Source: Bryobacterales bacterium KBS 96 (GTDB lineage Bacteria; Acidobacteriota; Terriglobia; Bryobacterales; Bryobacteraceae). Taken from it: 64,000 bases of DNA. Shown in pieces: positions 37,732 through 63,003 of the stretch. The stretch spans positions 2,582,629 through 2,646,628 of the forward strand of contig KB906767.1 of assembly GCA_000381625.1 (NCBI GenBank). The letters are read 5' to 3'. The notes under the pieces were generated by a model. The model had not been told where the DNA came from and searched no databases. It saw only the letters and a list, made by a program, of their open reading frames with translations. Both the position numbers and the translations under genes were made by a program. Positions within the stretch are counted from its first letter, which is position 1. Every line of letters begins with the position of its first letter.

Positions 37732-37786
37732 GCTAACGCGGAGTTGTTTGCGCCGTTACCGTGGCAATCGCCAGCTAAACGAGACA

Positions 37787-40048: not shown

Positions 40049-40064
40049 GGCCGGTGAAGAAGCG

Positions 40065-44452: not shown

Positions 44453-46273
44453 ATGCCGTCGCGCCCTAAGTTGCTCTTCGTGGACAACTCGATCGATACT
44501 TTCTATTCTTATCGGATGCCCCTGGCGGTAGCAGCAAGCCGGGCTGGTTTCGAAATTCATGTGGCCACTCCGCCAGGTCGTTGCGAAAAGGTGATCCGAG
44601 ATGCTGGCTTCACATTTCATCCTTTGCTCATGACTCGCAGGGGACTGGGTATCGGAGAGTTGAGTTGCCTTGTACACCTCTATTCGCTGTACAGGCACAT
44701 TAAACCGGATCTGGTTCATCATCTTCGCCTGAAACCAGTGCTGTATGGCGGTTTAGCGGCGTACGCGGCCCGCGTTCCCGCCGAGGTCAGCATGCCCACG
44801 GGACTCGGTCATGTCTTTACCGCACAGACTCGAAAGGCCCTAATCTTGCGCGCGATTACGCTGGCAGGCTGTCGTGTTGCCTTTCGGCACAAGAATCTAA
44901 GAGTCATTTTCCAAAATCCGGACGATCTTGCGGTGTTCGTCGACTCGAAGGTGCTGCTCAAGGAGAAGAGTGTTCTCATTCGCGGATCGGGCGTCGACAT
45001 CTCGCAATTTGTGCTGGCGCCCGAGCCCACCGGCCGGCCGGTGGTTATGCTCGCCGCGCGCATGCTCTGGGACAAGGGTGTGCTCGAATTCGTTGAGGTT
45101 GCCAAAACGCTTAAAGGCAGAGGGAGCGACGCACGTTTTGTTCTGGTTGGCGATACCGACCCTGGTAATCCCACGGCTATCTCCGCCGCTCAACTTCAAG
45201 CCTGGCACGATACAGGGCTAATCGAATGGTGGGGCTATCGCGAGGACATGCGCCAGGTGCTCGAGCAAGCAAACATCGTATGCCTACCCTCATATCGCGA
45301 AGGAGTCCCGAAAGTTCTCATTGAAGCTGCCGCCGCTGGACGCGCCATTGTCACCACGGATGTTCCCGGCTGCCGGGAAGTTGTTCGTCACGGCCAGAAC
45401 GGCCTGCTGGTGCCGCCGCGCGATTCCAAGCTACTTTCCGAAGCTATCGCATTTCTTTTGGCGAGTCCCAGTACACGCGCTCGCATGAGCCGGCGCGGCA
45501 GACATACCGCCGTCGCGAATTTTTCTCTTGATCGGGTTATCACCGAAACCATCGAAACCTACCATGATGTCCTTGGTCGTGTTCCCGCCAAGACTGGCGA
45601 TCGTGGTTATCGAGTGGCCAAACGGCTACTCGACATGTCTGTTTCCGGTCTCGGCCTTCTCGCCGCGAGTCCTCTCTTCGCAGTGATCGGTCTGGCAATC
45701 AAAGGGACCTCGCCTGGGCCCGTGTTTTATCGCGGCGCCCGCACCGGCCGCAACAACACAATCTTCCATATGTGGAAATTCCGCACCATGGTTGTCGACG
45801 CCGAGCGACTCGGCGGATCCGCTACAGCCAGCGATGACACCCGCATCACTCGGGCCGGTCGATTTCTCCGGCGCTACAAGCTCGATGAACTCCCGCAGCT
45901 AATCAATGTCCTCGTGGGTGAAATGAGTTTGGTCGGCCCCAGGCCCGAAGTACGGAAATACACCGATCTCCTCGCGGGCGAGCAGCGCATGATACTCAAT
46001 CTTCGGCCAGGTATTACCGATTGGGCGTCCATTTGGAATTCGAATGAAGGCGAAGTTCTCGCTGGCAGCTCGGATCCGGAGGCCGCCTATGAAGAATTGA
46101 TTCTACCTACAAAAATTGCCTTGCAGCTCAAATACTGCCACGAACACAGTTTCCGAACTGACTTCAATATTCTTTTCGAAACCGCACGAAAATTATTGCG
46201 GCCACAACACGTGCCGGGCGAACTCCGCTGCGTCACTAAAGTACTTCAATATAAAGATTTGGTAAAACAATGA
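44453..46273 (+). CDS. Fusion of GT4 glycosyltransferase and polyprenyl-phosphate sugar-1-phosphate transferase
   Basis: 606 residues, AAAAGGAGTAAC before ATG. Residues 1-~380 are a GT4 of the WbpY/PglA-like type: SMPTGLGHVFTA, LAARMLWDKGVLEFVEVAK, CLPSYREGVPKVLIEAAAAGRAIVTTDVPG. From ~385 a monotopic phosphoglycosyltransferase follows: KRLLDMSVSGLGLLAASPLF (re-entrant helix), FYRGARTGRNNTIFHMWKFRTM, RRYKLDELPQLINVLVGEMSLVGPRPEV with the catalytic Asp-Glu, and LRPGITDWASIWNSNE. It would prime the lipid carrier and add the second sugar. Overlaps the aminotransferase gene (ATGA). Confidence 0.92.
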   Translation: MPSRPKLLFVDNSIDTFYSYRMPLAVAASRAGFEIHVATPPGRCEKVIRDAGFTFHPLLMTRRGLGIGELSCLVHLYSLYRHIKPDLVHHLRLKPVLYGGLAAYAARVPAEVSMPTGLGHVFTAQTRKALILRAITLAGCRVAFRHKNLRVIFQNPDDLAVFVDSKVLLKEKSVLIRGSGVDISQFVLAPEPTGRPVVMLAARMLWDKGVLEFVEVAKTLKGRGSDARFVLVGDTDPGNPTAISAAQLQAWHDTGLIEWWGYREDMRQVLEQANIVCLPSYREGVPKVLIEAAAAGRAIVTTDVPGCREVVRHGQNGLLVPPRDSKLLSEAIAFLLASPSTRARMSRRGRHTAVANFSLDRVITETIETYHDVLGRVPAKTGDRGYRVAKRLLDMSVSGLGLLAASPLFAVIGLAIKGTSPGPVFYRGARTGRNNTIFHMWKFRTMVVDAERLGGSATASDDTRITRAGRFLRRYKLDELPQLINVLVGEMSLVGPRPEVRKYTDLLAGEQRMILNLRPGITDWASIWNSNEGEVLAGSSDPEAAYEELILPTKIALQLKYCHEHSFRTDFNILFETARKLLRPQHVPGELRCVTKVLQYKDLVKQ

Positions 46274-47469
46274 GGACCCTTCTTGAGTCGATCGAAGCCC
46301 CAGCCCATTGGGGCGGTGCACCTGCCTTCGCGGAACGTTTCCGGTTCATCTCTCCTCTCCTTCCGCCTCTGGACGAGGTGCTAGAGGACTTTCGCGCCGC
46401 GTATGACGCCGGAGTCATTACTAATGCCGCCTGCGTGCGGCGTTTCGAGGAGCAATCGGCCGCCTATCTCGGCGCGCGCGACTGCGTTGGCGTTTCTAGC
46501 TGCACTAGCGGCCTCACCTTAGTGATGCGCGCGCTGGAACTCGCAGGAGAGGTCATTGTTCCCAGCTTTACCTTCTTCGCGACCGCTCACGCCATTCGCT
46601 GGAACGGACTCACGCCTGTTCTGGCCGATTGCGATCGCGAAACCTGGAACATCGACCCCGCCGATGTGGAGCGCAAAATTACGGCGCGTACGTCGGCCAT
46701 CGTTGCCGTACATATGTACGGCAACCCGGCCAATGTGGACGCGCTAAGCAATCTCGCTCGCAAACACAACCTCAAGCTAATCTTCGACGCCGCGCATGCT
46801 TTCGGCAGCCAGCGGCTTGGTTTACCTGTTGGCCAGTTCGGCGACGCGGAAGTATTTTCCCTGTCTCCTACCAAGCTACTCGTCGCCGGCGAGGGCGGCC
46901 TGGTTGCCACGGCCGATCGGGATTTGGCTCGGGCGGTCCGTCTCATGCGCAACTACGGAGACGACGGCTCTTACGATCCTCAGTTTCTTGGCCAGAATGC
47001 CCGTTTGGGTGAATTCAATGCCGCTCTTGGTCTGCACGGACTTCCACTTGTGAATAAAAAAGTGCAGCGCCGCAACCAAATCGCCCGCATGTACGTAGAT
47101 GGACTTACCGGGTTGCCAGGCGTTACCTTTCAAAAGGTGGAAGCCGGGAACCGAAGCACCTACAAAGACTTTTCAATCCACGTTGATGGCAGCTTATTCG
47201 GATGCACGCGTGACCAGCTCGCACAAGCTCTGCTAACTGAAAATATCGAAACAAAGAAATACTTCTATCCGCCGCTGCATAAGCAGACGCTGTATCGGCA
47301 ATTCGACAGGACAGCGTTGCCAAATACCAATTACGTCGCCGACAATGTTCTGAGCCTTCCCATTTACGAAACACTGCCCGATTCCACGATCGCGTGCATC
47401 ATAGACAGCATTAAACGTATTCAGGGTTTCGTTGCTCATCGCTCGTTTGAAGCCAATGCGAAATCGTAG
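46270..47469 (+). CDS. DegT/DnrJ/EryC1/StrS-type sugar aminotransferase
   Basis: 399 residues. PLP enzyme: GVSSCTSGLTLVMRAL, VIVPSFTFFATAHAI, IVAVHMYGNPAN, LIFDAAHAFGSQ (Asp binding the pyridine nitrogen), SLSPTKLLVAGEGGLV with catalytic Lys202, and RNYGDDGSYDPQFLGQNARLGEFNAALG. Transfers an amino group to a keto sugar nucleotide. Overlaps the upstream fusion gene by ATGA. With the epimerase next, it likely makes an amino sugar that the deacetylases or the amino-acid cassette then modify (inference). Confidence 0.93.
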   Translation: MRTLLESIEAPAHWGGAPAFAERFRFISPLLPPLDEVLEDFRAAYDAGVITNAACVRRFEEQSAAYLGARDCVGVSSCTSGLTLVMRALELAGEVIVPSFTFFATAHAIRWNGLTPVLADCDRETWNIDPADVERKITARTSAIVAVHMYGNPANVDALSNLARKHNLKLIFDAAHAFGSQRLGLPVGQFGDAEVFSLSPTKLLVAGEGGLVATADRDLARAVRLMRNYGDDGSYDPQFLGQNARLGEFNAALGLHGLPLVNKKVQRRNQIARMYVDGLTGLPGVTFQKVEAGNRSTYKDFSIHVDGSLFGCTRDQLAQALLTENIETKKYFYPPLHKQTLYRQFDRTALPNTNYVADNVLSLPIYETLPDSTIACIIDSIKRIQGFVAHRSFEANAKS

Positions 47470-47510: not shown

Positions 47511-49061
47511 ATGTTTCCATCGCTCGAAAAGCTCTCTCGCCCCAATATCTTCTCCCGCGTCGTTGCCGATTTTCTGATGGTTCACACCAGTCTCGTTGCG
47601 GCATTGGTCGCATCCTGGATTCGGGGGACGCACGCCGCTTCGGAAGCTGTTCTGTTCGCCGAAGCACGCGAAGCCGTCGATCAATATCTGCACCTGTTCC
47701 TGCCGTTATCGCTCATCTTCCCGGCAGCCTTTCTGCTCAGCGGAATGTATCGTGACCACACGGGTTGGTCGCTCGGCCGTCGAGCTGTCGCTCTTTTGTG
47801 CGGACTGGCCGCGGGTCTGATTGCGTTTACCTCCATCTCGCTCGCCCTACTTCCCACGAGCAGCCTCGGCTCCAAAAGTCTGATCATTTTTTGCGCCGTG
47901 ATGGCGATTACCTTGTTTTCCGTTCGTAGCGGTGAGTGGGCCCTGTTCGCCACAGTCACAAGACGCGCTACCCGCCAGAATCGACTTCACTCTGAACGCC
48001 CAGTGCTCGTGGTGGGCGGCGCCGGCTACATCGGCTCCATGCTAGTTGCCGAACTGCTTCGTGCCGGACGCAAAGTGCGCGTGCTTGATAGTTTGCTTTA
48101 TGGCGACGGAGCGCTCCGAAACGTTCTCCGGGACCCCAACTTCGAACTCATCGTCGGCGATTGCCGTAATCTCCAGACTGCAATTCGAGCCGTAAGCGGC
48201 GTGGATTCCATCGTGCATCTGGCCGCTATCGTGGGCGATCCCGCCTGCGAACAGGATCGTCAAGCTGCGCTCGAAACTAATTACGCTGCCACTCGCATGC
48301 TGGTTGAGGTTGCCAAGGGCCAGGGAATATCGAGATTCTTGTTTGCCTCCAGTTGCAGCGTCTATGGCGCGTCTGACGATCTGATGACCGAAACGTCCCA
48401 AGCCCACCCGGTTTCCCTGTACGGTCAGACTAAGATCGATTCCGAGAAGGCCTTGCTTGATGCTTGTGACAAGCTCTTTCGTCCTACGATTTTGCGCCTA
48501 GCAACTGTATTCGGACTGTCACCCCGTCCGCGCTTTGACCTGGTAGTGAATCTACTAACGGCAAAAGCAGCGGCTGGTCACCCGATCACGATCTTTAACG
48601 GCAATCAATGGCGGCCCTTCATTCACGTTAGCGATGTCGTTCGCGGCTTCATCATGGCCCTCCATGCTCCGATCGAGCAGGTCGGTGGAGAGGTATTCAA
48701 TCTCGGAGACAGCAAACTGAATTACACGCTAACCGATGTCGCTGCTACTATACTGGAACTGTTTCCAAGCGCAACTGTCGAAACGGCGCCAAACAGCGAC
48801 TCCCGCAATTACCGCGTCTGTTTCGAGAAAATCCGAACTCGATTGGGATTTGAATGCAGCAAGAACCTGGCCTACGGCGTGAGCGAAATCGATGCCGCCT
48901 TAACGTCACGATCCATTCTGGACTACAGCAGCTACCAATACAGTAATCAAAAGTTTCTGTCTATCGCGGGTTGCCCCACCAGCGAGGATGAACTTGACGA
49001 GAAGGTGATGGCGGCGTTTTCCGAATCTCCCAAGCTTACCGCCGTAGCCGCCAGTCTCTAA
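47511..49061 (+). CDS. Membrane-anchored NAD-dependent sugar epimerase/dehydratase
   Basis: 516 residues. The first ~150 residues have about four membrane helices (e.g. LFLPLSLIFPAAFLL, ALLCGLAAGLIAFTSISLALL, LIIFCAVMAITLFSV) reminiscent of the N-terminus of PglF/WbpM proteins. From 164 a single extended-SDR domain follows: VLVVGGAGYIGSMLVAELL (169-176 loop), IVHLAAIVGDP, FASSCSVYG and YGQTK (Tyr304-Lys308). The catalytic Tyr-x-x-x-Lys is kept, unlike some membrane dehydratases. The pairing of the membrane part with a soluble-type epimerase is unusual. GalE-like or 4,6-dehydratase activity is inferred. Confidence 0.85.
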   Translation: MFPSLEKLSRPNIFSRVVADFLMVHTSLVAALVASWIRGTHAASEAVLFAEAREAVDQYLHLFLPLSLIFPAAFLLSGMYRDHTGWSLGRRAVALLCGLAAGLIAFTSISLALLPTSSLGSKSLIIFCAVMAITLFSVRSGEWALFATVTRRATRQNRLHSERPVLVVGGAGYIGSMLVAELLRAGRKVRVLDSLLYGDGALRNVLRDPNFELIVGDCRNLQTAIRAVSGVDSIVHLAAIVGDPACEQDRQAALETNYAATRMLVEVAKGQGISRFLFASSCSVYGASDDLMTETSQAHPVSLYGQTKIDSEKALLDACDKLFRPTILRLATVFGLSPRPRFDLVVNLLTAKAAAGHPITIFNGNQWRPFIHVSDVVRGFIMALHAPIEQVGGEVFNLGDSKLNYTLTDVAATILELFPSATVETAPNSDSRNYRVCFEKIRTRLGFECSKNLAYGVSEIDAALTSRSILDYSSYQYSNQKFLSIAGCPTSEDELDEKVMAAFSESPKLTAVAASL

Positions 49062-49097: not shown

Positions 49098-50156
49098 CTA
49101 CATATCTACCGTCGGAAATCGATAAGCATAATCAGTGTCCAGATAACTAAGTTGTTCAAGCTCCTGGACCGCATCTTCGGAACTTCGAGTCAAGATGTAC
49201 AACGGCCGTCTGGACGTCGACCGGTAAAAGCCATTCCGTTTAGCAAGTTCCAGAAGATCCACATCCAGGCGCGATGCCAGCAAGGAAATAAGCCATCCAC
49301 CACTGTCGCGTATATGACGGATGGTCTTTACTATCGCTACTTCCAGCATTCTATAGTTACTACGACAGGGCAGCACGGAAATCCTCCAGAAGCGTCGATC
49401 GGTTACTGGATGCCAGAATAGAACTGCGCCAATCGGCTCCCCGCCGCAGAATACGAGGCAAGCCCCTCCGGTGATTGAAGGACACCGATCCAGTAGCCAT
49501 CGCAAGTATTGCGAATCATAAGCCGGAACATGAGCATCGACAGCCCTGGTGGTAAGTGACTCGCCAAAGGCGGCCGGCAAGGATGCGCCAAACTGAACAG
49601 CTATCGGCTCTTTGCTTTTCGGTTCTCTTATTGGCAGCCTAATGTTATTGACAGCTGATACCGATGGGATTACGTTTACCGTGGTTGCTTTCCGCAATGC
49701 GCATACCGCTCCGCCGATACGCACGGGCTTGTATAATTCGAGACCGGCCGTTGGCACGGTTACTCGGGAAAGCCGCCCCATGATTGCCTTTGTCATCTCT
49801 CCGCCGCCTAGTGAATAGATCAGTGGATATGCTTTTAAGCTATGTTGAATCAGCATAACCCCGAGTGGCCCGCTCGCATCAAGAGCGCGATACCAGTCGC
49901 AACTCCAAGCTGCATCGACCGCTTTTCCGTTGCGCATTACCGTAAACGGAATCAAGCCAATGAATGATAAAAGTCTGCCACGGTCATCGACGCAGGCGAA
50001 GCCGCGTTCTCTGCTTCGGTTAAAGTCACTATCGTAATATTTCCAGTCGATAATGGCTGCATCGTGCCCATGCCCGGAAAGAAACGCGTGGAGCGCACTT
50101 ACAGGAATCTTGCTCAGCGGCTCAATAACGATAGACACAACGATAGTGTAATGCAT
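49098..50156 (-). CDS. GNAT-fold acyltransferase-like protein, antisense to the cluster
   Basis: About 352 residues from ATG 50156 (upstream starts overlap the divergent gene). Two GNAT-like halves: KYYDSDFNRSRERGFACVDD, IPFTVMRNGKAVDAAWSCDW, SLGGGEMTKAIMGRLSRV, and later YDSQYLRWLLDRCPSITGG, EPIGAVLFWHPVTDRRF, and ELAKRNGFYRSTSRRPLYIL. This resembles FemAB-like or EPS-cluster GNAT proteins that add amino-acyl or acyl groups to sugars. The only minus-strand gene in the locus; shares a ~30-bp divergent promoter region with the flavin monooxygenase gene. Confidence 0.72.
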   Translation of the reverse strand: MHYTIVVSIVIEPLSKIPVSALHAFLSGHGHDAAIIDWKYYDSDFNRSRERGFACVDDRGRLLSFIGLIPFTVMRNGKAVDAAWSCDWYRALDASGPLGVMLIQHSLKAYPLIYSLGGGEMTKAIMGRLSRVTVPTAGLELYKPVRIGGAVCALRKATTVNVIPSVSAVNNIRLPIREPKSKEPIAVQFGASLPAAFGESLTTRAVDAHVPAYDSQYLRWLLDRCPSITGGACLVFCGGEPIGAVLFWHPVTDRRFWRISVLPCRSNYRMLEVAIVKTIRHIRDSGGWLISLLASRLDVDLLELAKRNGFYRSTSRRPLYILTRSSEDAVQELEQLSYLDTDYAYRFPTVDM

Positions 50157-50186: not shown

Positions 50187-51254
50187 ATGTCTTCTAAAAA
50201 TCAACAACAAGAGCAGTCGCCGGCAATTTCACCGGATTTTGGCGACATCAAGGTCTTTGCGACCAGCCCGCAATCGCTCGACTCGGTTCCCGAAACATAT
50301 CTGCGGAAGGTCATCGAGGTAGCCCAGTGGTCGGAATCGGCGGGCTGCACCGGAACTCTGGTCTACACGGACAACTCCATTGTGGATCCATGGCTGGTCG
50401 CTCAAGCCATTCTCGCGAATACCCAAACTCTTGTGCCGCTAGTGGCTGTCCAGCCGCTGTACCTGCACCCTTATGCGGCCGCGAAAATGGTCACTTCGCT
50501 TGCTTATCTTTACGGTAGGCGGGTGATTCTCAACATGGTCGCAGGCGGCTTTAAAAACGATCTTCTCTCTCTTGGCGATCAAACTCCGCACGACAGGCGG
50601 TACGACCGGCTTATCGAATATGTCAAGATCATCCAATTGTTACTGGGCAGCGATTTCCCAGTCACTTATGATGGCGACTTCTACCATTTGACGAACGCCG
50701 TGCTTAGACCCAATCTTGCTCCAGGGCTTCAGCCGGAGTTTTTCATGTCTGGCTCGTCGGAGGCCGGTCTCGCCGCAGCAACCGCAACCGGCGCCGTGGC
50801 CATCAAATATCCCGAACCGCCAGAGCAGCTTGCGGAAGCGGCGCCGCCCGTACAATCGGACTCTGGCGTGCGTGTTGGCATCATTGCCCGCCGTACGACC
50901 GACGAAGCTTGGGACGTCGCTGAGGAACGCTTTCCGTTCGATCGCAAGGGACAGATTGCGCATGAGATGGCGATGCGCGTCTCCGATTCCTCTTGGCACA
51001 AAAGGCTGTCTGTGCTCTCGAAGGAGAACGCCGTCGGCGGCACGTACTGGCTCGGCCCCTTTGAGGTGTCAAAATCTAACTGCCCCTACTTGGTCGGCAC
51101 TTACAGTGCTGTCGCTCAAGACCTGCGGCGCTACATTCAGCTCGGATATCGAACGTTTATCCTTGACATTCCGCCCTCAGCGGAGGAACTGGGACATATT
51201 AGAACGGTTTTCGAGGAGGCCGCCGCTTTTGCAAGCTGCGATGTACACGCATGA
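50187..51254 (+). CDS. LLM class flavin-dependent monooxygenase
   Basis: 355 residues. Luciferase-like TIM barrel: KVFATSPQSLDSVPETYLRKVIEVAQWSESAGCTGTLVYTDN, VQPLYLHPYAAAKMVTSLAYLYGRRVILNMVAGGF, YDRLIEYVKIIQLLLG, FFMSGSSEAGLAAA. Pattern close to SsuD/MsnO8-type enzymes that use reduced flavin and oxygen. ATGA overlap with the adenylation gene, so the two are coupled. In this cassette it may hydroxylate or oxidatively cleave a carrier-bound amino acid (inference). No flavin reductase is adjacent. Confidence 0.88.
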   Translation: MSSKNQQQEQSPAISPDFGDIKVFATSPQSLDSVPETYLRKVIEVAQWSESAGCTGTLVYTDNSIVDPWLVAQAILANTQTLVPLVAVQPLYLHPYAAAKMVTSLAYLYGRRVILNMVAGGFKNDLLSLGDQTPHDRRYDRLIEYVKIIQLLLGSDFPVTYDGDFYHLTNAVLRPNLAPGLQPEFFMSGSSEAGLAAATATGAVAIKYPEPPEQLAEAAPPVQSDSGVRVGIIARRTTDEAWDVAEERFPFDRKGQIAHEMAMRVSDSSWHKRLSVLSKENAVGGTYWLGPFEVSKSNCPYLVGTYSAVAQDLRRYIQLGYRTFILDIPPSAEELGHIRTVFEEAAAFASCDVHA

Positions 51255-52858
51255 CTGCGAAATTGTTGCAAGACTATGTAGTACGGCAAGCGCAGTTGCG
51301 TCCCGATGAAATCGCTATTGTAAGCGGCGATGAGCGACTGACCTATTCGCAACTTGATCGTCAGTCAAACAGCCTCGCGTGGAGGTTGCGAGCGGCCGGT
51401 TGCCAGCGAGGCGATCGCGTCGCTCTGCTGGTGCCCAAGTCGCCATTGGCCATCGTCAGCATAATTGCCTGCCTGAAGACTGGCTGTATCTACGTCCCAC
51501 TGGACGTAGATAGCCCCCGGGACCGTCTCGATCTGATTCTGGAATCGTCGAGCAGCCGCTTGCTTCTCGCCGTTGCTTCGTCCGCCTCGCTTGCCGAAAA
51601 ATTGCTGACCGAAACAGCCAGGACGACGCGCGTGGCTTGGCTCAAAGGCGAGTCTGAGCCTACTTCTTCGACGAGCAGCCTTACGCCAGCATTTAGCTGG
51701 CCGGTGACGGAAGCGGCGACAGCCCCTTCGAACGCGGGCAGGCCAGAAGATGTCGCCCACCTCCTGTTCACTTCCGGGTCAACCGGACGGCCCAAGGGAG
51801 TGATGATTACCCATGCGAACGTGATGTCGTTTGTCGAATGGGCGATTTCGCATTTCAACTACACGCCGGAAGATCGCATCTCCGGCCATCCACCGCTTCA
51901 CTTCGATCTCTCTACGTTCGACATCTACGGCACCTTCGCTGCTGGAGCGCAATTGTATCTGGCGTCGGCGAAGCTAAACGTACTGCCCCACAAAGTCGCC
52001 GAATTCATCCGCGGCAACGAACTCACGCAGTGGTTCTCCGTGCCTTCGCTGCTCTCCTATATGGCGAAATTCGATGTGGTTCGTCCGCACGATTTTCCAA
52101 AATTGAAGCGACTCCTCTGGTGCGGAGAACGGTTCCCTACTCCGGCTCTCATTTACTGGATGAAACGTCTGCCTCATGTCGAATTCACAAATCTTTACGG
52201 TCCAACGGAAACGACCATCGCGAGCAGCTTTTATCGCGTTCCGGAGTGTCCCACGGCTGAAGATGCGCCCATTCCCATCGGCATCCCCTGTGGCGGCGAA
52301 TCTTTACTCGTGCTTGATGAACGCTTGCAACCTCCATCCGCGGGGGGAGTGGGCGATTTATATATCGGCGGAGTCGGTCTCAGCCCAGGTTATTGGAACG
52401 ACCCTGAAAGAACGCGAGCCGTCTTCCTGGATGAGCCTTTTGGCCCCGGTTCCGGTCGCATCTACAAAACAGGCGATCTAGCGAGCGTGGGGAAGGATGA
52501 TCTCGTATATCTGCACGGCCGCCGCGACTCACAGATTAAGAGTCGAGGTTACCGTATCGAACTAGGTGAAATTGAGGTCGCGCTCCAAACGACCAGTGGA
52601 ATTCGGGAAGCGGCGGTTATCGCCATCGAAAGTAGTGGGTTCGAGGGCGCCGTCATCTGCTGTGCTGTAGTCCCTGAACGAGGGATGGCGTTCGAGCCAC
52701 AGGTGCTTCGCAGTCGTCTTTCTCAGCGTCTGCCGCATTATATGTTGCCGTCACACTGGCTTCGCTTTGAGTCGCTTCCTCTCAATGGCAACGGCAAAGT
52801 TGACAAAACTGTCCTCCGCAGCCAGTTCTACGAGTCTCTACATCCGGAGGTTTCTTAA
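51251..52858 (+). CDS. Free-standing amino-acid adenylation enzyme (NRPS A-domain type)
   Basis: 535 residues. Core motifs: LLFTSGSTGRPKGVMITH (A3, ~171-188), FDLSTFDIYG (A4, 218-227) with the aspartate that binds the amino group of alpha-amino acids, NLYGPTETTIASS (A5), YKTGDL (A7), GRRDSQIKSRGYRIELGEIE (A8) and PLNGNGKVDK (A10) with the catalytic lysine. No condensation or carrier domain is attached; the separate carrier protein is encoded next. It should activate an amino acid as an AMP ester and load it onto that carrier. The length and A4 style resemble stand-alone prolyl- or D-alanyl-type ligases; substrate unknown. Confidence 0.92.
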   Translation: MTAKLLQDYVVRQAQLRPDEIAIVSGDERLTYSQLDRQSNSLAWRLRAAGCQRGDRVALLVPKSPLAIVSIIACLKTGCIYVPLDVDSPRDRLDLILESSSSRLLLAVASSASLAEKLLTETARTTRVAWLKGESEPTSSTSSLTPAFSWPVTEAATAPSNAGRPEDVAHLLFTSGSTGRPKGVMITHANVMSFVEWAISHFNYTPEDRISGHPPLHFDLSTFDIYGTFAAGAQLYLASAKLNVLPHKVAEFIRGNELTQWFSVPSLLSYMAKFDVVRPHDFPKLKRLLWCGERFPTPALIYWMKRLPHVEFTNLYGPTETTIASSFYRVPECPTAEDAPIPIGIPCGGESLLVLDERLQPPSAGGVGDLYIGGVGLSPGYWNDPERTRAVFLDEPFGPGSGRIYKTGDLASVGKDDLVYLHGRRDSQIKSRGYRIELGEIEVALQTTSGIREAAVIAIESSGFEGAVICCAVVPERGMAFEPQVLRSRLSQRLPHYMLPSHWLRFESLPLNGNGKVDKTVLRSQFYESLHPEVS

Positions 52859-52863
52859 AACTC

Positions 52864-53112
52864 ATGTCGACGTGTGTCGAGCGCATACAAGCTATTTTTT
52901 CTCAGATCCTCTACCGTGAGGTCGAGTCTCCTCAAGTGGATCTGTTTGAAACGGGACTACTCGATTCAATGGGTTTGATCGAGTTGCTCTTCAATCTGGA
53001 ACAGCAGTTCGGCTTCCAGCTCGATATCGCGCATCTGGATCTCGATCAGTTTCGATCCATAGAAAGCATCGCCAGCCTGGTGGAATCGAGCGGCGTAGGA
53101 CAAGCTTCATGA
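52864..53112 (+). CDS. Acyl/peptidyl carrier protein
   Basis: 82 residues with GGAGG-type site upstream. Single ACP helix bundle; LFETGLLDSMGLIELLFNLE contains the phosphopantetheine serine (Asp34-Ser35-Met36). Carries the aminoacyl group loaded by the upstream adenylation enzyme. The next gene overlaps its stop (ATGA), so carrier and carbamoyltransferase are made together. Confidence 0.92.
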   Translation: MSTCVERIQAIFSQILYREVESPQVDLFETGLLDSMGLIELLFNLEQQFGFQLDIAHLDLDQFRSIESIASLVESSGVGQAS

Positions 53113-54899
53113 AGATTCTCGGCATCAGTGGTCTCGATCAATCGGTTCTGTTCCGCCGCCAGCAGTGGCCTGGCCTCGATGAGCGAGAGTACCGCATTTC
53201 CCAGGGCCACGACGCCGCCGCCGCTCTGGTGCTTGATGGAAAATGCCTGTACGCAGCCGCCGAGGAGCGGTTCAGCCGTAAAAAGCACAGCGGCGAATTC
53301 CCCGCCGGGGCGATCGATTTTTGTCTCAGAGAAGCCGGCCTAAGTATTGACGATATCGACGAGATCGCCCACGCTTTCGATTACTCTCCTTATAAGAGCA
53401 TTTTCCTGCTCGATCCGATATCGGCGCGCCTGTATAACACTGTCTATTCGCGCGAAGCTTTCGTTGCCGCCGTGCAAAATCACTTTCCGCACTTCCCGTC
53501 CGAACGCATCGTCCAGGTCAATCATCATCTCGCCCATGCCGCCAGCGCCTACTACACTTCCGGCTGGAACGAATGTCTGGTTATCGTGCTCGATGGCATG
53601 GGCGAAGTAGATAGCGTCTCGGTTTATCTCGCCCGTGACGGACGCCTTGAACGCATTCATCGAATTCCAGCCACCGATTCCATCGGTATTCTGTACTCCC
53701 TTATCACCCTTCACTTAGGGTTCGATTTCAACGCCGACGAATATAAGATTATGGGCCTCGCTCCATATGGCGATCCGGCCCGGTTCCGGGAATTCTTCAA
53801 TCGCATCGTAACCTTGGGCGACAACGGATCTATCCGTATTCCTATCCTGCACATGCAGTCGAACGGCAATGAAAATACCTATCAAGCTACCCGGGGATTG
53901 CTTTCGGGAAGTCTAATCAAGGAACGCCAACCGGACGAGGAAATCACCGACGATCACCGTGACGTCGCCGCCGCTCTGCAGGAAGTTCTTGAAAACACCT
54001 TGCTCTACATTTGCGGCTACTTCGCTTCACGTACCGGTGTGCGCAAACTGGCACTCGCCGGCGGGGTGGCTCTCAACTGCACCGCTAATGGCAAACTGCT
54101 TCAGTCCGGTCATTTCGACGAAGTCTACATTCAGCCGGCGGCCGGCGACGATGGCTCCGCTCTGGGAGCGGCGCTTCACCGCTCCGCTCACGCGGGTTGT
54201 ATTGTTAACGAACGCCAGAAGGCGCCGTTCCTAGGACCAGCCTACCGGAACGGTAACGTCGCCTCCGCTCTGCGGCATCAAGCAGAACGGATCGAAGCCG
54301 TGACTTTTTCGACGCTCGACGAAACTTGTGCCGAAGCCGCGCGGCTGATTCAGGCGGGATCGGTTATTGCCTGGTACCGCGGGCGCATGGAGTTTGGCCC
54401 TCGCGCACTGGGTCATCGCAGCATTCTTGCCGATCCCGGGCGTCCCGAAATGCGCGACCGGATCAACGCCATGGTCAAGATGCGCGAAGCCTTCCGGCCC
54501 TTTGCGCCCGCCGTCGCCATCGAAGAGGTACATCGCTGGTTCGATGTGCCGCCTGGCACCGAACTCCCGTATATGATCACAATCGTCGATGTTCGCGAGC
54601 CGTATCGTGCCGAGTTGCCCGCCATTACCCACGTAAATGGCAGCGCGCGGGTGCAGACCGTTTCGGCAAAAGACAACGGCGACTTTCATGTTCTCCTCGA
54701 AGCCGTCGGCCGCTTCACGGGCCGCCGCATGGTCTTAAATACCAGCTTCAATATCAAAGGACAGCCGATCGTAAATACTCCCGGCGAAGCCATCGAAACC
54801 TATCTGCGGACTGGGATCGACTACTTATTCATCGAGAACACTCTCGTCGCGCGGAAATCCACTCTAGCCAACTCTCGCGCGTCCGTTCTAACCGCCTGA
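53109..54899 (+). CDS. NodU/CmcH-family carbamoyltransferase
   Basis: 596 residues. N-terminal actin-like fold: ISQGHDAAAALV, CLYAAAEERFSRKKH, VNHHLAHAASAYYTS with paired histidines, GFDFNADEYKIMGLAPYGDP, and LALAGGVALNCTANGKLL. C-terminal YrdC-like lobe: GRMEFGPRALGHRSILADP and MVLNTSFNIKGQPIV. These enzymes make carbamoyl-AMP from carbamoyl phosphate and pass it to hydroxyls or amines of sugars or antibiotics. In this cassette the acceptor could be the carrier-bound amino acid or a sugar. Spans to within 20 bp of the next gene. Confidence 0.94.
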   Translation: MKILGISGLDQSVLFRRQQWPGLDEREYRISQGHDAAAALVLDGKCLYAAAEERFSRKKHSGEFPAGAIDFCLREAGLSIDDIDEIAHAFDYSPYKSIFLLDPISARLYNTVYSREAFVAAVQNHFPHFPSERIVQVNHHLAHAASAYYTSGWNECLVIVLDGMGEVDSVSVYLARDGRLERIHRIPATDSIGILYSLITLHLGFDFNADEYKIMGLAPYGDPARFREFFNRIVTLGDNGSIRIPILHMQSNGNENTYQATRGLLSGSLIKERQPDEEITDDHRDVAAALQEVLENTLLYICGYFASRTGVRKLALAGGVALNCTANGKLLQSGHFDEVYIQPAAGDDGSALGAALHRSAHAGCIVNERQKAPFLGPAYRNGNVASALRHQAERIEAVTFSTLDETCAEAARLIQAGSVIAWYRGRMEFGPRALGHRSILADPGRPEMRDRINAMVKMREAFRPFAPAVAIEEVHRWFDVPPGTELPYMITIVDVREPYRAELPAITHVNGSARVQTVSAKDNGDFHVLLEAVGRFTGRRMVLNTSFNIKGQPIVNTPGEAIETYLRTGIDYLFIENTLVARKSTLANSRASVLTA

Positions 54900-54921: not shown

Positions 54922-56424
54922 ATGGCCGCTTTAATCTTCTTGGGTGTGACCGCCTGTATCTTGTCGTTCCTTCTCACGCCCGTGATTAGCCGGCTGTTTT
55001 TAGCGTTGGATATAGTGGATCATCCTGACGGCAGCCGGAAGTTGCACGGCAGGCCGGTGCCCCGTGCCGGCGGTTTACCCATCGCGCTTAGTTTTGGTGG
55101 CGCCATCGGTATCGCCATGATCGTTCTTCCCGGGGGCTCGCGTCTCGCCAGTCATCACATGCCTATCTTCGGATGGCTCTTCGCTGCGGCTGCTATTATT
55201 CTTCTCTCCGGCCTTGTGGATGACGCAATCGGTCTAAAGCCATGGTCCAAATTGGCTATGCAATTGATTGCCGCTGGCCTCGCCTGCTGGGGCGGCGTCC
55301 GTATAGATGCCATTGCCGGCCATCCCATTTCCCTATGGTTGGGGGCCCCCCTCACTCTGTTCTGGATCGTCGCTTGTACTAACGCTCTTAACCTCATTGA
55401 TGGCCTTGACGGATTGGCCACCGGTGTCGGCTTGTTTGCCGCCCTCACCGCACTCACAGCGGCATGCCTTCAAGATAATATCGGCTTGGCTCTCGCCACT
55501 GCGCCCTTGGCTGGCGCCCTGCTTGGCTTCCTGCGTTATAACTTTAATCCAGCATCGGTCTTTCTTGGAGACAGCGGGAGCCTAACCGTGGGATTTCTCC
55601 TCGGCTGCTTCGCTGTCATCTGGTGCCAGAAATCGGCCACGTTACTCGGCATGGCCGCGCCACTCATCTCACTCCTCGTGCCGCTCACGGACGTCAGCGT
55701 TTCGGTTGCCCGACGCTTCCTAAGCGATCGCCCTATTTTTGCGGCCGACGGCCGTCACATCCACCATCGGTTGCTAGCGCGCGGTTTCCGTCCGCGCACG
55801 GCGGCGCTGGTGCTCTACATTGCTTGCGGAGCGGCTGCGGTCCTTTCGCTGCTCGATTGCCTACTTTCCCAACAAATCGGCGGCTTCGTGGTGGTGTTCG
55901 TGTGCGGCCTCGCATGGGCGGGGATTCGCTTCCTTCGCTATGATGAGTTCGCTGTCGCGCGGCGGCTCGCCGTCACTCGGAGGTTTCGCCGGGCAGTTAG
56001 TGAGGAATTGTGCCTTCGCAAATTCGAGACACGTATCGCCGATGCGAGAACGCTGGAAGAGTGCTGGCCCATCATTTGCGACCTCTGCCACGATATAAAA
56101 TTCCATTCCGTGAGCCTGCTCTCGCCAGAACAAAACTTTGAAGAATCCGCCCTTTCCACGGAGACATCGGCGTCCGGAGTGCCTGCGGATTGGCGTCTCC
56201 AGATTGCTATTCATTCGCAAATCAGTCTGGTCCTCCATCGCACCTGCGATGATGGCGACGTACTGCCTGGCATGGGCTGTCTCAAAATTGTGCAACTGGC
56301 GCTTCAGGCCAAACTTCCCGGATTATCCGCCGCTTCTTCTGGTTCTAGCGTAGGGCCTGAATTACCTCAACCAGCATCCAGGCCTGGGTTGCCGCAAGCG
56401 ACTGCCGCCTTTGCCGGCTCCTAA
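54922..56424 (+). CDS. WecA/TagO-type polyprenyl-phosphate N-acetylhexosaminyl-1-P transferase with C-terminal extension
   Basis: 500 residues, vs ~340-370 in most relatives. Polytopic core: GLVDDAIGLKPWSKLAMQL (Asp-Asp), CTNALNLIDGLDGLATGVGLFA, NFNPASVFLGDSGSLTVGFLLG and DGRHIHHRLLARGF (HIHH loop). It transfers a sugar phosphate to a lipid carrier, so the locus has a second priming enzyme. Residues after about 335 are soluble: a cysteine-bearing helical region (RTLEECWPIICDLCHDIKF) and a Pro/Ser-rich tail, perhaps a GAF-like module. Confidence 0.9.
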   Translation: MAALIFLGVTACILSFLLTPVISRLFLALDIVDHPDGSRKLHGRPVPRAGGLPIALSFGGAIGIAMIVLPGGSRLASHHMPIFGWLFAAAAIILLSGLVDDAIGLKPWSKLAMQLIAAGLACWGGVRIDAIAGHPISLWLGAPLTLFWIVACTNALNLIDGLDGLATGVGLFAALTALTAACLQDNIGLALATAPLAGALLGFLRYNFNPASVFLGDSGSLTVGFLLGCFAVIWCQKSATLLGMAAPLISLLVPLTDVSVSVARRFLSDRPIFAADGRHIHHRLLARGFRPRTAALVLYIACGAAAVLSLLDCLLSQQIGGFVVVFVCGLAWAGIRFLRYDEFAVARRLAVTRRFRRAVSEELCLRKFETRIADARTLEECWPIICDLCHDIKFHSVSLLSPEQNFEESALSTETSASGVPADWRLQIAIHSQISLVLHRTCDDGDVLPGMGCLKIVQLALQAKLPGLSAASSGSSVGPELPQPASRPGLPQATAAFAGS

Positions 56425-56449: not shown

Positions 56450-57604
56450 ATGCGCGTCGTTCACATCTTTCCTCACCTCCGACCCGGTGGCGCCGAGCGG
56501 GTTCTGGTGCATATTATGAATCACCTCGATCCCTCGCGCTTCGAGGTTTCAGGCATCTGCCTTGCCGGGCGCAATGGGTCCGATCTCGAGCAACTGATCG
56601 AGCGGACTGGCATCCCTGTTCAGTTTCTAGGAAAAAAGCCCGGCTTTGACGCCCGAATGTATACACGCGTGCATGCCGCGCTTCGTCGAGCCGCACCCGA
56701 TATTATCCATTCTCACGTCCATGTACTGCGTTATTTGCTGCCATATATCGGATATAGCCATTTCTTGGGTAAACGTACATGCATGCTTCACACCGTGCAC
56801 AGCCTGGCTGAATTCGAAGTGGAACCACGCGCTCGCTGGATTCAGCGCCTCGCGTTTCGCAATGGAGTGATTCCCGTCGCCGTTGCGCACGAAGTCTCAC
56901 GAAGCCTCGTGCGGCTATACGGAATCTCCGAGCCGGCGGTTATTCCGAACTGCTTGCCTGTCGAGCGCTACCGCCGCCCAGAGATTCCGCGCGATCAATG
57001 GCGTGCCCGGCAAGGCTTTGCGCCCGAATCCGTTTTGCTTACTTGTGTGGCCGGCCTGCGGCCCGAAAAGAATCACGAGCTGTTGCTTAGAGCGTTCTCC
57101 GGAACGGTCGATGGAAGGCGCCGCAGCCATCTTCTACTCGCGGGTGGAGGAGATCAGACAAACCTCCGAAAGCTCGCTGCGGATCTTGGCGTTGCTTCCC
57201 GCGTCCATTTCTTAGGTGTTCGAACCGACATACCGGATCTTCTAGCTGCGTCCGATGTGTTCGTGCTCGCCTCTAAATACGAAGGCAATCCCCTCTGCGT
57301 CATGGAGGCTATGGCCGCCGGTCTCCCCGTGGTGGCGGCTCGCGTTGGGGGTATCCCTGAACTAATTACGGATGGCGTCGAGGGCTTTCTGGTGGCCACA
57401 TCACGGCCCGGTTATCTTGCGAAAGCGATCGATACACTGCTCATCGACGAAGAGCGACGCTCCCAAATGGGTGCGGCCGCAGCGGAGCGCGCCCTCAAGA
57501 ATTTCGACGTAACTCACATGATTGCCGGTTATGAAAGCCTCTATAACGCTACCCTATCGGCGCCTTCCGTGCGTTCTTCCCGGGCAAGCGAGCAGATCCT
57601 ATGA
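56450..57604 (+). CDS. Glycosyltransferase family 4
   Basis: 384 residues. HIFPHLRPGGAERVLVHIMNHL start, VAGLRPEKNHELLLRAF, HFLGVRTDIPDLLAASDVFVLASKYEGNPLCVMEAMAAGLPVVAARVGGIPELI with the E-x-x-x-E pattern. Typical EPS/capsule GT4. Overlaps the downstream ligase/polymerase start (ATGA). Confidence 0.91.
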   Translation: MRVVHIFPHLRPGGAERVLVHIMNHLDPSRFEVSGICLAGRNGSDLEQLIERTGIPVQFLGKKPGFDARMYTRVHAALRRAAPDIIHSHVHVLRYLLPYIGYSHFLGKRTCMLHTVHSLAEFEVEPRARWIQRLAFRNGVIPVAVAHEVSRSLVRLYGISEPAVIPNCLPVERYRRPEIPRDQWRARQGFAPESVLLTCVAGLRPEKNHELLLRAFSGTVDGRRRSHLLLAGGGDQTNLRKLAADLGVASRVHFLGVRTDIPDLLAASDVFVLASKYEGNPLCVMEAMAAGLPVVAARVGGIPELITDGVEGFLVATSRPGYLAKAIDTLLIDEERRSQMGAAAAERALKNFDVTHMIAGYESLYNATLSAPSVRSSRASEQIL

Positions 57605-58905
57605 TCGCTTCGTACGCGCCCGCCGGTTCTGGCAATTCCCGCGCCACACACCCACTGCGATCGCCGCGCCCGCGGAGAGATGCGTCGCTTATTCGCGTTG
57701 CGTTTCTCTTTTTTTGGTGCTTGGTCTTTACGATTCCTTGGGAAAATCTCGTCGTAATTCCCAAACTCGGCACGGTTGCCCACTTGATTGGTTATCTCGC
57801 GCTGGGCATCGGTCTGCTCGCCGTGCTTGATAGGGGCCGCCTGAATCCCACGACTGGCAGCTTCCTTCTCCTCGCGGCATTCGCCTTCTGGAGATGCCTC
57901 AGTTTCCTGTGGACGGCCTCTCCGGAAGCCACCCTGATCGAAATTCAAACTATCCTTCAGATGGTTGCGATGGTGTGGCTACTGCATCAGCTTGCCTTCT
58001 CGCGGAAACGGGTTCTGGCCGTGATGCAGGCTTATGTGCTCGGAACTCTTGTCTCGGCCTGCGATATCATTCATCAATATCTGACGGGCGCAAACCCCGC
58101 TTATCAGTCTCGTTTCACCGCCACCGGCTTTGATCCCAACGAGCTCGCGCTGATGCTGGTTTTAAGCTTTCCGCTGAGCCTCTACCTCGCCAGTTCCACT
58201 CGGAGTCACGCCCTCGTATGGCTCTATCGCGTGCAACTGATGCTCACCGCATCGGCAGTACTGCTAACAGCCTCGCGCGGCCCCTTTCTGGCTTCCTTCG
58301 GACTGGTCCTGTTTTTGCCTGCGGTATTCTTCCGTTCGAGCGAAAAACAGAAGGCCGCCCTGGTAGCCGTTGCTGTCTTAGGCGCTGGTCTTATCTTGTA
58401 TCTGGTTCCCGCTGCCTCCTGGGCGCGGCTTGGCACTATCGGAACACAAGTCTCGACCGGGACGTTCAACGATCGGACGATCATCTGGGAAGCGGGCTTG
58501 AATGTCTTTCGCCAGAACCCCATACTGGGTGTCGGAGCTGGCGCCTTCAGCACCGTTGTGCGCAACTCAACCGGCATTTCCTACGTAGCTCACAACACCT
58601 TTCTTTCAATTCTGGTCGAGCAAGGTTTAATCGGCTTTGGCCTGTTCATCACGTTGTTTATCTATTCAATACGCTCCTGCCTGCGTATGCCCCGTTTTGA
58701 GAGAGCCCTCTGGCTCGCCATGCTGTTGACCCTGGCCATCGGAGTATTTTCTCTCACCTGGGAATACCGCAAACCGATTTGGCTCATCTTTGGGCTAATT
58801 TCGGTCCAAGTATGCGTGGCGAATGCAGCGCCAAAATCTTCGCGTGCTCTCCGCCTGTTTTCCCGGATCGATTCCGCTCAAGCGCCCGTCGCGGCCGGCA
58901 AGTAA
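57601..58905 (+). CDS. O-antigen ligase/polymerase family protein (Wzy/WaaL-like)
   Basis: 434 residues with about ten to twelve membrane helices. The long loop contains the family's RFTATGFDPNELALML, SRGPFLASFGLVLF and RTIIWEAGLNVFRQNPILGVGAGAFSTVV, with AHNTFLSILVEQGLIGF (the His of the ligase pattern). Polymerises or ligates repeat units on the periplasmic side. Start overlaps the upstream GT4 stop. Confidence 0.9.
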   Translation: MIASYAPAGSGNSRATHPLRSPRPRRDASLIRVAFLFFWCLVFTIPWENLVVIPKLGTVAHLIGYLALGIGLLAVLDRGRLNPTTGSFLLLAAFAFWRCLSFLWTASPEATLIEIQTILQMVAMVWLLHQLAFSRKRVLAVMQAYVLGTLVSACDIIHQYLTGANPAYQSRFTATGFDPNELALMLVLSFPLSLYLASSTRSHALVWLYRVQLMLTASAVLLTASRGPFLASFGLVLFLPAVFFRSSEKQKAALVAVAVLGAGLILYLVPAASWARLGTIGTQVSTGTFNDRTIIWEAGLNVFRQNPILGVGAGAFSTVVRNSTGISYVAHNTFLSILVEQGLIGFGLFITLFIYSIRSCLRMPRFERALWLAMLLTLAIGVFSLTWEYRKPIWLIFGLISVQVCVANAAPKSSRALRLFSRIDSAQAPVAAGK

Positions 58906-58907
58906 CG

Positions 58908-60557: not shown

Positions 60558-61520
60558 ATGGAAGTAATGCACGAAGAGTTTGAATCGCTTCTCGCATGCC
60601 CGTTGTGTCACGCCGATCTCTATAAAGCTGACAATAGTTACCGCTGTCGAAGCGATGTATGTAAGCAGGACTATCCAGTTATAAATGCAATCCCAATTCT
60701 TATTGCGGAGTCGTTAAGCACATTCACGATCTCAGCTTATCGACAGCAGACACGCACCCACTCAGGACGACTAAAAAAACGCCTGCGATCCTTTATTCCA
60801 AGAATTTCTGCTAACTTCGTCGCTTCAAAAAACCTAGAGGAGTTCGGAGAACGTCTCCTGCTTGAGAACCCCTGCCCGCTTGTGTTGGTTCTTGGCGGCG
60901 CCGAAGTGGGCGCGGGCATGCAAGGGTTACTTCGAAACAAGCGCATTAAATGCATCGAGACCGATATTGTGATTGGGTCGCGGACGGAGATCGTATGTGA
61001 TGCCGGTTATATACCATTGAAAGCGGAATCGGTGGATGGGGTTGTGATTCAAGCCGTTCTGGAGTATATTCCCGATCCGGCCCAGGCCGTGGCCGAGATT
61101 CACCGCGTACTAAAACCTCGAGGAATCGTCTATTCAGAAATGCCGTTTATGCAAGATGTGCACGGCGGACGGTACGATTTCACTCGACTGACGCATCTGG
61201 GACACCTACGGCTCTACCGCCATTTTACTGAGCTCCAAAGCGGGGCATGTGCCGGCCCCGCGACTGCGCTGGCATGGGCGCTGCAGAACTTCTTTCTTTC
61301 ATTTGTGAAATCGCCTTGGCAGCGTGATCTAACGAAGATCGCTAGTGGTTTATTGTTCTTCTGGCTCAAATATTTTGACTACTTACTGGCGCGCACGCCT
61401 GGAGGACTCGACGCGGCAACCGGGACCTTCCTGCTGGCTCAAAAGAGCGACCGTATCATGGCTGACCGTGAATTGATTGCAAGATATAGGGGCGCCGTTC
61501 CGGCAACCGGGATTCTCTGA
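60558..61520 (+). CDS. SAM-dependent methyltransferase with N-terminal zinc-binding (Trm112-like) segment
   Basis: 320 residues. Cys14/17/30/35 (CPLCH ... CRSDVCKQDYPVINAIPIL) form a Trm112-like zinc-binding start. Methyltransferase body: CPLVLVLGGAEVGAGMQGLL (motif I variant), CIETDIVIGSRTEIVCDAGYIPLKAESVDGVVIQAVLEYIPDP, LKPRGIVYSEMPFMQDVHG. Probably methylates a sugar or lipid head of the polysaccharide. It lies between the two beta-helix genes. Confidence 0.83.
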   Translation: MEVMHEEFESLLACPLCHADLYKADNSYRCRSDVCKQDYPVINAIPILIAESLSTFTISAYRQQTRTHSGRLKKRLRSFIPRISANFVASKNLEEFGERLLLENPCPLVLVLGGAEVGAGMQGLLRNKRIKCIETDIVIGSRTEIVCDAGYIPLKAESVDGVVIQAVLEYIPDPAQAVAEIHRVLKPRGIVYSEMPFMQDVHGGRYDFTRLTHLGHLRLYRHFTELQSGACAGPATALAWALQNFFLSFVKSPWQRDLTKIASGLLFFWLKYFDYLLARTPGGLDAATGTFLLAQKSDRIMADRELIARYRGAVPATGIL

Positions 61521-62909: not shown

Positions 62910-63003
62910 GCTCGACTTCTAAATAACCATGGTTGATAGCCGCTGATGGACTCGGCTATCTCTAACGTTGGACGTTTGGCGAGAATATCGGAGGAATCAA
63001 TGT

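Follow-up and report, generated by a model that had tools for sequence, protein, structure and literature searches.

A luciferase-like monooxygenase, adenylation, carrier and carbamoyltransferase cassette in an exopolysaccharide locus of Bryobacterales bacterium KBS 96

A four-gene cassette and its conservation

We analyzed a 64,000-nucleotide stretch of the genome of Bryobacterales bacterium KBS 96 (contig KB906767.1, positions 2,582,629 to 2,646,628; hereafter the window). It holds a cassette of four genes encoding a luciferase-like monooxygenase (LLM), a stand-alone adenylation domain (A-domain), an acyl carrier protein (ACP) and a carbamoyltransferase (CT):

50187-51254, plus strand, LLM flavin monooxygenase gene (PF00296 Bac_luciferase; SsuD-like but not SsuD)
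51251-52858, plus strand, stand-alone amino-acid A-domain gene (TIGR01733; code DLFFLCLIA)
52864-53112, plus strand, stand-alone peptidyl/acyl carrier protein gene (PF00550 PP-binding, 43.2 bits against a cut-off of 20.8)
53109-54899, plus strand, NodU/TobZ/GdmN-type CT gene (PF02543/PF16861)

An earlier note on this DNA had described these four open reading frames (ORFs), their plus-strand coordinates and their close coupling, and the sequence bears this out: ATGA overlaps lie at 51251 and 53109, and five bases separate the A-domain stop from the carrier start. In Pfam and NCBIfam profile scans, each of the four families, as named in that note, scored above its Pfam cut-off. The A-domain core motifs TSGSTG, YGPTE, YKTGD and NGK are intact, the carrier, 82 residues long, has its DS motif at 34-35, and the CT retains HDAAA, HHLAHA and GPRALGHRS. 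GC content is 0.53-0.57 over the cassette and 0.53-0.60 around it, so the cassette is not set apart by composition, and promoter-like sites fall below the shuffle expectation (1 versus a mean of 5.8).

The arrangement is conserved. LLM matches at E <= 1e-30 were found in 12 of 297 sampled genomes of the phylum, and the scan of a collection with a single genome per species (84,980 species) returned 123 LLM relatives, of which 80 were kept. Together with the 12 phylum loci these made 92; three loci on duplicate contigs (L074, L098 and L108, the same contigs as L021, L023 and L025) were removed, which left 89. The LLM gene is followed by an A-domain ORF on the same strand within 3.5 kb in 74 of these 89 loci (LLM-A loci), which shows that the cassette is not a chance association, and a carrier is present in 69 of the 74.

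The adenylation domain and its carrier

The A-domain scored 268 bits against AMP-binding (cut-off 29.9) and 39.6 bits against AMP-binding_C (cut-off 24.5), and it passed TIGR01733 (373.9 versus 317.4 bits), which places it in the nonribosomal peptide synthetase (NRPS) amino-acid adenylation class. Its AlphaFold2 model has a pLDDT of 88.6. The pocket is non-polar. A code alignment, which the earlier note had proposed as a check, returned a single nine-residue code, DLFFLCLIA, in 53 of 75 distinct A-domain rows; position 278 is Phe in all 75 and position 301 is Cys in 74. This one dominant code suggests that the cassette A-domains probably activate one amino acid. A tree of 31 rows contains two A-domain clades, both fully supported. 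The second comprises L034, L035, L072 and L112 and is variable at position 239; among the wider set of its Bradyrhizobium members, position 322 varies too.

The closest codes that we extracted are prolyl-type: DLLYLALVC, from a Brasilonema ligase encoded next to an acyl-CoA dehydrogenase and a carrier, and DLFYLALVC, from Streptomyces clavuligerus and Microvirga. Prolyl-code rows join the cassette A-domains at no supported fork of the tree. A Gemmobacter ligase tried as a prolyl reference proved not to be one and was rejected. Among structures near the A-domain model, PltF ranks tenth (Z 49.7, rmsd 2.2 A, 497 residues aligned, 32% identity), with DltA slightly behind (Z 48.1, 27% identity). 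For the substrate, presumably a small and non-polar alpha-amino acid, our guess is proline or a smaller analogue.

The likeness to DltA bears on a different explanation, in which the A-domain and carrier would decorate the polysaccharide with unmodified alanine or glycine while the LLM enzyme and CT serve another product. Both proteins do score against the Dlt models (282.9 bits for DltA, 306.6 for the DltA subfamily model NF003417 and 43.8 for DltC), and Cys at 301 and Ala at 331 of the code presumably resemble DltA. The DltA and DltC scores are nevertheless far under the equivalog cut-offs of 559.85 and 68, which leaves the pair outside the DltA/DltC class and led us to reject a Dlt system. 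Moreover, the Pfam scan of 30 window proteins yielded no member of the DltB/MBOAT or DltD families, and in 74 of the 89 related loci the A-domain comes after an LLM gene. We regard this explanation as very improbable.

Further A-domains were also seen elsewhere. The DLFYLALVC protein of the Streptomyces clavuligerus megaplasmid (L136, about 12001-13509) is 39.5% identical to that of the window and has other A-domain ORFs within 12 kb. In the source genome, outside the window, three more NRPS-type A-domains exceed the TIGR01733 cut-off, near 4886179-4892134 and 5061684.

The monooxygenase

The LLM protein belongs to the PF00296 superfamily (125.8 bits, cut-off 27.9), and its nearest PDB match is SsuD (E 1e-26). 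Its best NCBIfam scores, also to SsuD, are 131.8 and 128.4 bits against cut-offs of 510-518. SsuD residues C54, R226, H228 and R297, which we take to have active-site roles, align with I65, R229, G231 and S295 when paired by hand, so that one of the four is kept. With scores this far under the cut-off and one conserved active-site residue, we rejected an identity as SsuD-type sulfonate oxygenase. A flavin reductase gene lies near LLM-A in 8 of the 74 loci, which fits an FMNH2-dependent LLM enzyme.

Precedents exist for flavin enzymes that act on carrier-bound substrates. MupA of the mupirocin pathway, itself an LLM enzyme, introduces an alpha-hydroxyl group into a carrier thioester (PMC10952193), and ChmG is a free flavin enzyme that N-oxygenates a prolyl-S-carrier (PMC10849742). 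The LLM gene of the cassette is coupled to the A-domain gene, and its product would oxidize the carrier-bound aminoacyl group. A palmerolide-like pairing of LLM and CT was considered and rejected; in the available portion of that description both belong to a trans-acyltransferase polyketide synthase (PKS) (PMC8739492).

The carbamoyltransferase

The CT scored 205.4 bits against Carbam_trans_N (cut-off 24) and 218.2 bits against Carbam_trans_C (cut-off 27), which places it in the NodU/TobZ-type class, and did not reach the NodU equivalog model (147 versus 1000 bits). Its closest PDB matches are NovN (1e-114) and GdmN (1e-110). In 21 loci from five phyla (Acidobacteriota, Gemmatimonadota, Pseudomonadota, Actinomycetota and Myxococcota), LLM-A has a CT that is 59.9-67.7% identical to that of the window; its position is downstream, upstream or divergent, and gene order and orientation vary. 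The recurrence of this set points to a CT function linked with LLM-A-ACP. Other CTs are less similar to that of the window: six from Actinomycetospora share 41-44% identity, L047 37% and L076 34%. The nearest outsider compared, a PKS-linked CT of Burkholderia glumae, is 47% identical. ORFs shorter than 450 residues were left out of the CT tree, which retained 29 of 31 loci.

CT is not a constant partner; 29 of the 74 LLM-A loci have one. Other partners include a 168-residue GNAT (22 of 74), an ATP-grasp-like protein (10 of 74, an assignment resting on a protein under the Pfam cut-offs) and a phosphopantetheinyl transferase (PPTase; 2 of 74). A formyltransferase or the small GNAT occurs in place of, or besides, CT in other loci. 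Among all 89 loci, CT (31) and formyltransferase (8) never co-occur (Fisher p = 0.047, ignoring the relatedness of the loci), a weak result on which we place no weight.

Two more distant CTs lie elsewhere in the source genome. In L041, an EPS (exopolysaccharide) locus of Nitrospirota, an ORF at about 10-12 kb that scores best as CT stands between LLM and carrier, the usual place of the A-domain.

A divergent tandem GNAT upstream

Immediately upstream, and divergent from the cassette, lies one further gene:

49098-50156, minus strand, tandem GNAT-type N-acyltransferase by predicted fold, a candidate transferase

We took its start at the ATG at 50156, which gives 352 residues; the ORF is open from a TTG at 50210. 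The protein has no Pfam match. Its AlphaFold2 model (pLDDT 79, pTM 0.77) matched N-myristoyltransferase (1e-11), the clavulanate tandem GNAT (9e-11) and Eis2 (1e-10) in Foldseek, and the predicted fold suggests two GNAT domains in one chain.

A profile of the roughly 370-residue GNATs found beside other LLM-A loci matched the window GNAT weakly (15 bits, E 1.5e-5 in a 33-protein set). The reverse profile search gave E 1.3e-5, and the hhalign profile-profile comparison gave 95% and 2.8e-8. The same profile finds a homologue in L034 at 2e-5 among 8,731 ORFs, and this protein is 33% identical to the window GNAT. In the 297 phylum genomes, a search with the window GNAT gave no other match at E <= 1e-6. 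Proteins of the tandem-GNAT family are present in 44 of the 89 loci, three by weak matches only (1e-4 to 1e-3).

Tandem GNAT-type enzymes move acyl groups from a thioester to an amine. The earlier note had seen in the four genes a complete minimal NRPS-like route within a Wzx/Wzy locus. A predicted route of activation, holding, oxidation and carbamoylation is supported, but it is not complete, as no release enzyme is present among the four. The tandem GNAT is a candidate fifth part that may supply this release or transfer step.

The surrounding exopolysaccharide locus

The following genes surround the cassette and the GNAT gene:

36736-37731, plus strand, Wza-like export protein
37748-40048, plus strand, Wzc-like chain-length/kinase protein (Wzz/BY-kinase domains)
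40032-41408, plus strand, Wzx-like flippase (PF01943, 46.7 bits)
43278-44411, plus strand, GT4 glycosyltransferase (GT)
44453-46273, plus strand, GT4 glycosyltransferase-polyprenyl glycosylphosphotransferase fusion (GT-PGT; PF00534/PF02397)
46270-47469, plus strand, DegT-family sugar aminotransferase (PF01041, 334 bits)
47511-49061, plus strand, NAD-dependent sugar epimerase/dehydratase (PF01370, 159 bits)
54922-56424, plus strand, WecA-like polyprenyl-phosphate glycosyl-1-phosphate transferase (PF00953, 127.6 bits)
56450-57604, plus strand, GT4 glycosyltransferase
57601-58905, plus strand, Wzy_C O-antigen ligase/polymerase (PF04932, 67.5 bits)

With PF01943, PF04932, Wzz/BY-kinase domains, PF02563 and PF02397/PF00953 all present, the region is a Wzx/Wzy-dependent EPS locus. 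The earlier note had placed the cassette between its Wzx and Wzy genes, and the profiles agree, with PF01943 upstream (about 9 kb away) and PF04932 downstream (about 3 kb away). The WecA-like gene begins 22 bases past the cassette. The DegT protein scored 314.5 bits against TIGR04427 (DesI), under the cut-off of 650.

Several other genes lie in the locus. A NusG-domain protein (35794-36411), perhaps an RfaH/LoaP-like antiterminator, heads it, and similar genes are present in seven related loci. Between 41430 and 43276, after Wzx, a DUF2334 protein is followed by a weakly deacetylase-like protein under the Pfam cut-off. Downstream of Wzy are two right-handed beta-helix proteins, at 58779-60323 (just under the Pfam cut-off) and 61638-62909, which are possibly polysaccharide-modifying or lyase-like. 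A methyltransferase gene (60558-61520) and a VanZ-family gene (62968-63468) lie near them.

Distribution and genomic context of related loci

LLM relatives occur in Acidobacteria, Gemmatimonadetes, Nitrospirae, Planctomycetes, Verrucomicrobia, Actinobacteria (Actinomycetospora, Conexibacter, Solirubrobacteraceae), Bradyrhizobium, Methylocaldum, Thioalkalivibrio and others. The block is thus not peculiar to the EPS locus of the window: LLM-A pairs are found in many phyla, and CT accompanies 29 of the 74.

AMP ligase or NRPS genes also neighbor more distant LLM relatives on plasmids of Tritonibacter, Rhizobium, Gemmobacter and Streptomyces. The accompanying genes, among them carrier, PPTase, P450 and halogenase genes, vary from plasmid to plasmid, and the annotation of the stretches covered includes no CT. 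In the first three (L017, L018 and L019), the LLM identity is 47-51% and the clusters combine AMP ligases and a PPTase with P450 or tryptophan-halogenase genes. In L030 and L032, more distant LLM relatives adjoin xanthine/uracil permease genes, which suggests a purine or pyrimidine role for these proteins.

We counted a locus as fully flanked when 7 kb or more was available on each side, as for 43 LLM-A loci, and as a glycan locus when hidden Markov models (HMMs) grown from few seeds recognized at least two kinds of glycan gene in it. Fifteen of the 43 are glycan loci, eight have one kind of glycan gene and 20 have none. The HMMs miss some genes: L097, counted as having none, contains a GT4 match of 62 bits. 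L036, likewise scored as lacking them, carries DegT-like and NusG-like genes on the opposite strand, 3-4 kb upstream, where its relative L040 has Wza- and Wzc-like genes.

Some loci resemble the window in their glycan setting. In L034, from another acidobacterium, two GT genes, GT-PGT, DegT, epimerase and a divergent GNAT precede LLM, A and ACP, with one extra ORF between GNAT and LLM; this locus also carries a methyltransferase. In L087, LLM-A-ACP-GNAT-CT stands amid Wzc-, Wzy-, GT- and Wzx-like genes. Other settings differ. In L024, as read from the sequence, LLM-A-ACP occurs by itself, flanked by an RND pump and EF-G. In L059, LLM-A-ACP and CT lie amid ferritin-like, MFS, papain-like and amylase genes, and in L036 amid regulators, a metallo-beta-lactamase-fold protein and a PQQ protein. 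In Bradyrhizobium L072, CT, LLM, A, ACP and GNAT lie between YkuD-like/dicarboxylate-symporter genes and a leuB-like gene.

The earlier note had counted the occurrence of the block away from glycan genes in relatives as telling against its proposal of a decorated polymer, and L024, Bradyrhizobium and L059 show exactly this. With L024, L059 and L072 away from recognized glycan genes, we rejected a confinement of the block to EPS loci. Its glycan and non-glycan placements show that the module is portable, and what it makes need not be a polymer group. Since 15 of the 43 fully flanked LLM-A loci, from several phyla, are glycan loci, it is still plausible, though unproven, that the EPS polymer carries a modified amino-acid group.

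These placements raise an alternative in which the cassette makes a small diffusible product, such as a signal, metallophore or antimetabolite, its EPS placement is incidental and the GNAT acceptor is a free amine. The Bradyrhizobium CT-LLM-A-ACP-GNAT sets, beside leuB-like, symporter, alcohol-dehydrogenase and YkuD genes, favor it, with no glycan gene among the Pfam-identified neighbors (six L072 neighbor ORFs have no Pfam match). So do the CT cassettes without recognized glycan genes (L033, L042, L059; Gemmatimonadota) and the 20 fully flanked loci in which the HMMs found none. Set against these are the cassettes of the window, L034 and L087, which are embedded in EPS genes, and the 15 loci with at least two kinds of glycan gene. 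On balance we consider a diffusible product unlikely, if by no means negligible.

A proposed pathway

We tentatively favor, at somewhat below an even chance, a pathway in which an amino acid is loaded, oxidized and carbamoyl-capped before the GNAT passes it on, in this genome perhaps to an amino sugar of the EPS. The free-standing A-domain would adenylate the small non-polar alpha-amino acid and load it onto the carrier. The LLM enzyme, FMNH2-dependent, would then oxidize the carrier-bound aminoacyl group to give an N-OH or C-OH nucleophile, and the CT would cap the new hydroxyl with a carbamoyl group; elsewhere, a formyltransferase or small GNAT may do something similar. Finally, the divergent tandem GNAT would take the completed group off its carrier thioester and attach it to an amine. 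With the DegT aminotransferase and epimerase genes upstream, the likely acceptor here would be an EPS amino sugar supplied by these enzymes, and the EPS repeat would bear an N-linked, oxidized, carbamoylated amino-acid group. The substrate, the site and kind of oxidation, the order of the steps, and the donor and acceptor of the GNAT are what we infer in this scheme. A more specific form of it, in which an LLM-fold enzyme N-oxygenates the aminoacyl-S-carrier, CT or formyltransferase caps the N-O group, and tandem GNATs transfer the product to amines, here amino sugars of a capsule-like polymer, is speculative, and we give it rather little credence.

Several observations weigh against the favored pathway. 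The code DLFFLCLIA differs from the prolyl references at 4 or 5 of nine positions, which makes the identity of the amino acid a guess, and nine other A-domain structures, including some of other specificities, outrank PltF with close Z values. A flavin reductase was not seen among the 30 scanned window proteins. GNATs are common in general, the window GNAT is only 11-19% identical to GNATs of loci other than L034, and the Bradyrhizobium GNAT set gave no direct match to it (hhalign 0.2%); we therefore do not claim orthology for the window GNAT. The window GT-PGT gene is unmatched in the other phylum genomes sampled (E <= 1e-150), so that synteny for the EPS link rests on L034, and no CT was found in the L034 stretch examined.

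CT is also found in 3 of the 15 glycan loci (L083, L087 and L047, the last with only the 37% identical CT) versus 17 of the 20 loci without a recognized glycan gene, and in 3 of the 8 with one kind. Carbamoylation is therefore not tied to glycans; most CT loci without glycan genes are close relatives (Bradyrhizobium and Actinomycetospora).

TobZ, NovN and GdmN carbamoylate sugars or polyketides. The CT of the window might likewise act on an EPS sugar hydroxyl, as NodU does on the Nod factor and TobZ on an aminoglycoside sugar, independently of LLM-A-ACP, which would add a non-carbamoylated aminoacyl group. The 12 of 15 glycan-locus cassettes without CT are consistent with such independence, but the same CT set, at 60-68% identity, stands beside LLM-A-ACP where no glycan gene is recognized, and this leaves a separate sugar carbamoylation improbable in our judgment.

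Bacteria attach amino acids and carbamoyl groups to surface sugars. Decoration of such sugars by way of a dedicated carrier module with its own flavin oxygenase was not found described in the literature searched. The module recurs, with one dominant code, in Acidobacteriota, Gemmatimonadota, Nitrospirota, Planctomycetota, Actinomycetota, Bradyrhizobium and others, so a function assigned once for four or five small proteins would cover the gene set in dozens of genomes. Such an assignment could also bring to light an LLM-type oxygenase whose substrates are carrier-bound amino acids. Were the N-oxygenation form true, polysaccharides would carry hydroxamate-, hydroxyurea- or N-carbamoyloxy-type amino-acid groups, which could bind metals or be chemically reactive.

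Comparison with known systems

The earlier note knew of no described system with this exact set, and our search of the open-licence PMC literature for the gene set and the code strings likewise returned no matching description, which is weak evidence of absence. Single-module NRPS-like tailoring is known; the present combination of parts, as judged from sequence, appears undescribed in that literature and unusually widespread.

Dlt resembles the cassette in using a free A-domain and carrier for surface-polymer decoration; the cassette differs in its added LLM enzyme and CT and in the lack of a DltB/DltD match noted above. NodU, TobZ, GdmN and NovN share with the cassette CT its family, both domains and the core motifs, and the cassette CT differs in forming its own 60-68% identical set beside LLM-A-ACP. 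For the gvg operon (4-formylaminooxyvinylglycine), the available text mentions both a CT and a formyltransferase, and a product with an N-O group; it describes no LLM, A-domain or carrier.

MupA, like the proposed LLM enzyme, is a luciferase-like monooxygenase that acts on a carrier-bound thioester; according to the portion of the account available, its substrate is a beta-ketoacyl polyketide and not an amino acid (PMC10952193). The chalkophomycin proteins ChmG/H/I/J come close in another way, comprising a stand-alone A-domain, a carrier and a free-standing flavin enzyme that acts on a carrier-bound amino acid. ChmG, unlike the LLM enzyme, belongs to the acyl-CoA dehydrogenase superfamily, and the available portions describe no CT or GNAT partner (PMC10849742, PMC11085572).

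Lincosamide synthetase shares with the cassette a stand-alone prolyl-type A-domain and carrier (LmbC/CcbC with their carrier), and it joins the amino acid to an amino sugar by an amide bond, as we propose here (PMC4351081). It differs in that the part of the account available describes no carrier-acting LLM oxygenase and no CT, the proposed condensing proteins are mycothiol-like rather than a tandem GNAT, and the product is an antibiotic, not a polymer (PMC4351081). Among the systems found, lincosamide synthetase is the nearest described means of attaching a prolyl-type amino acid from a carrier to an amino sugar.

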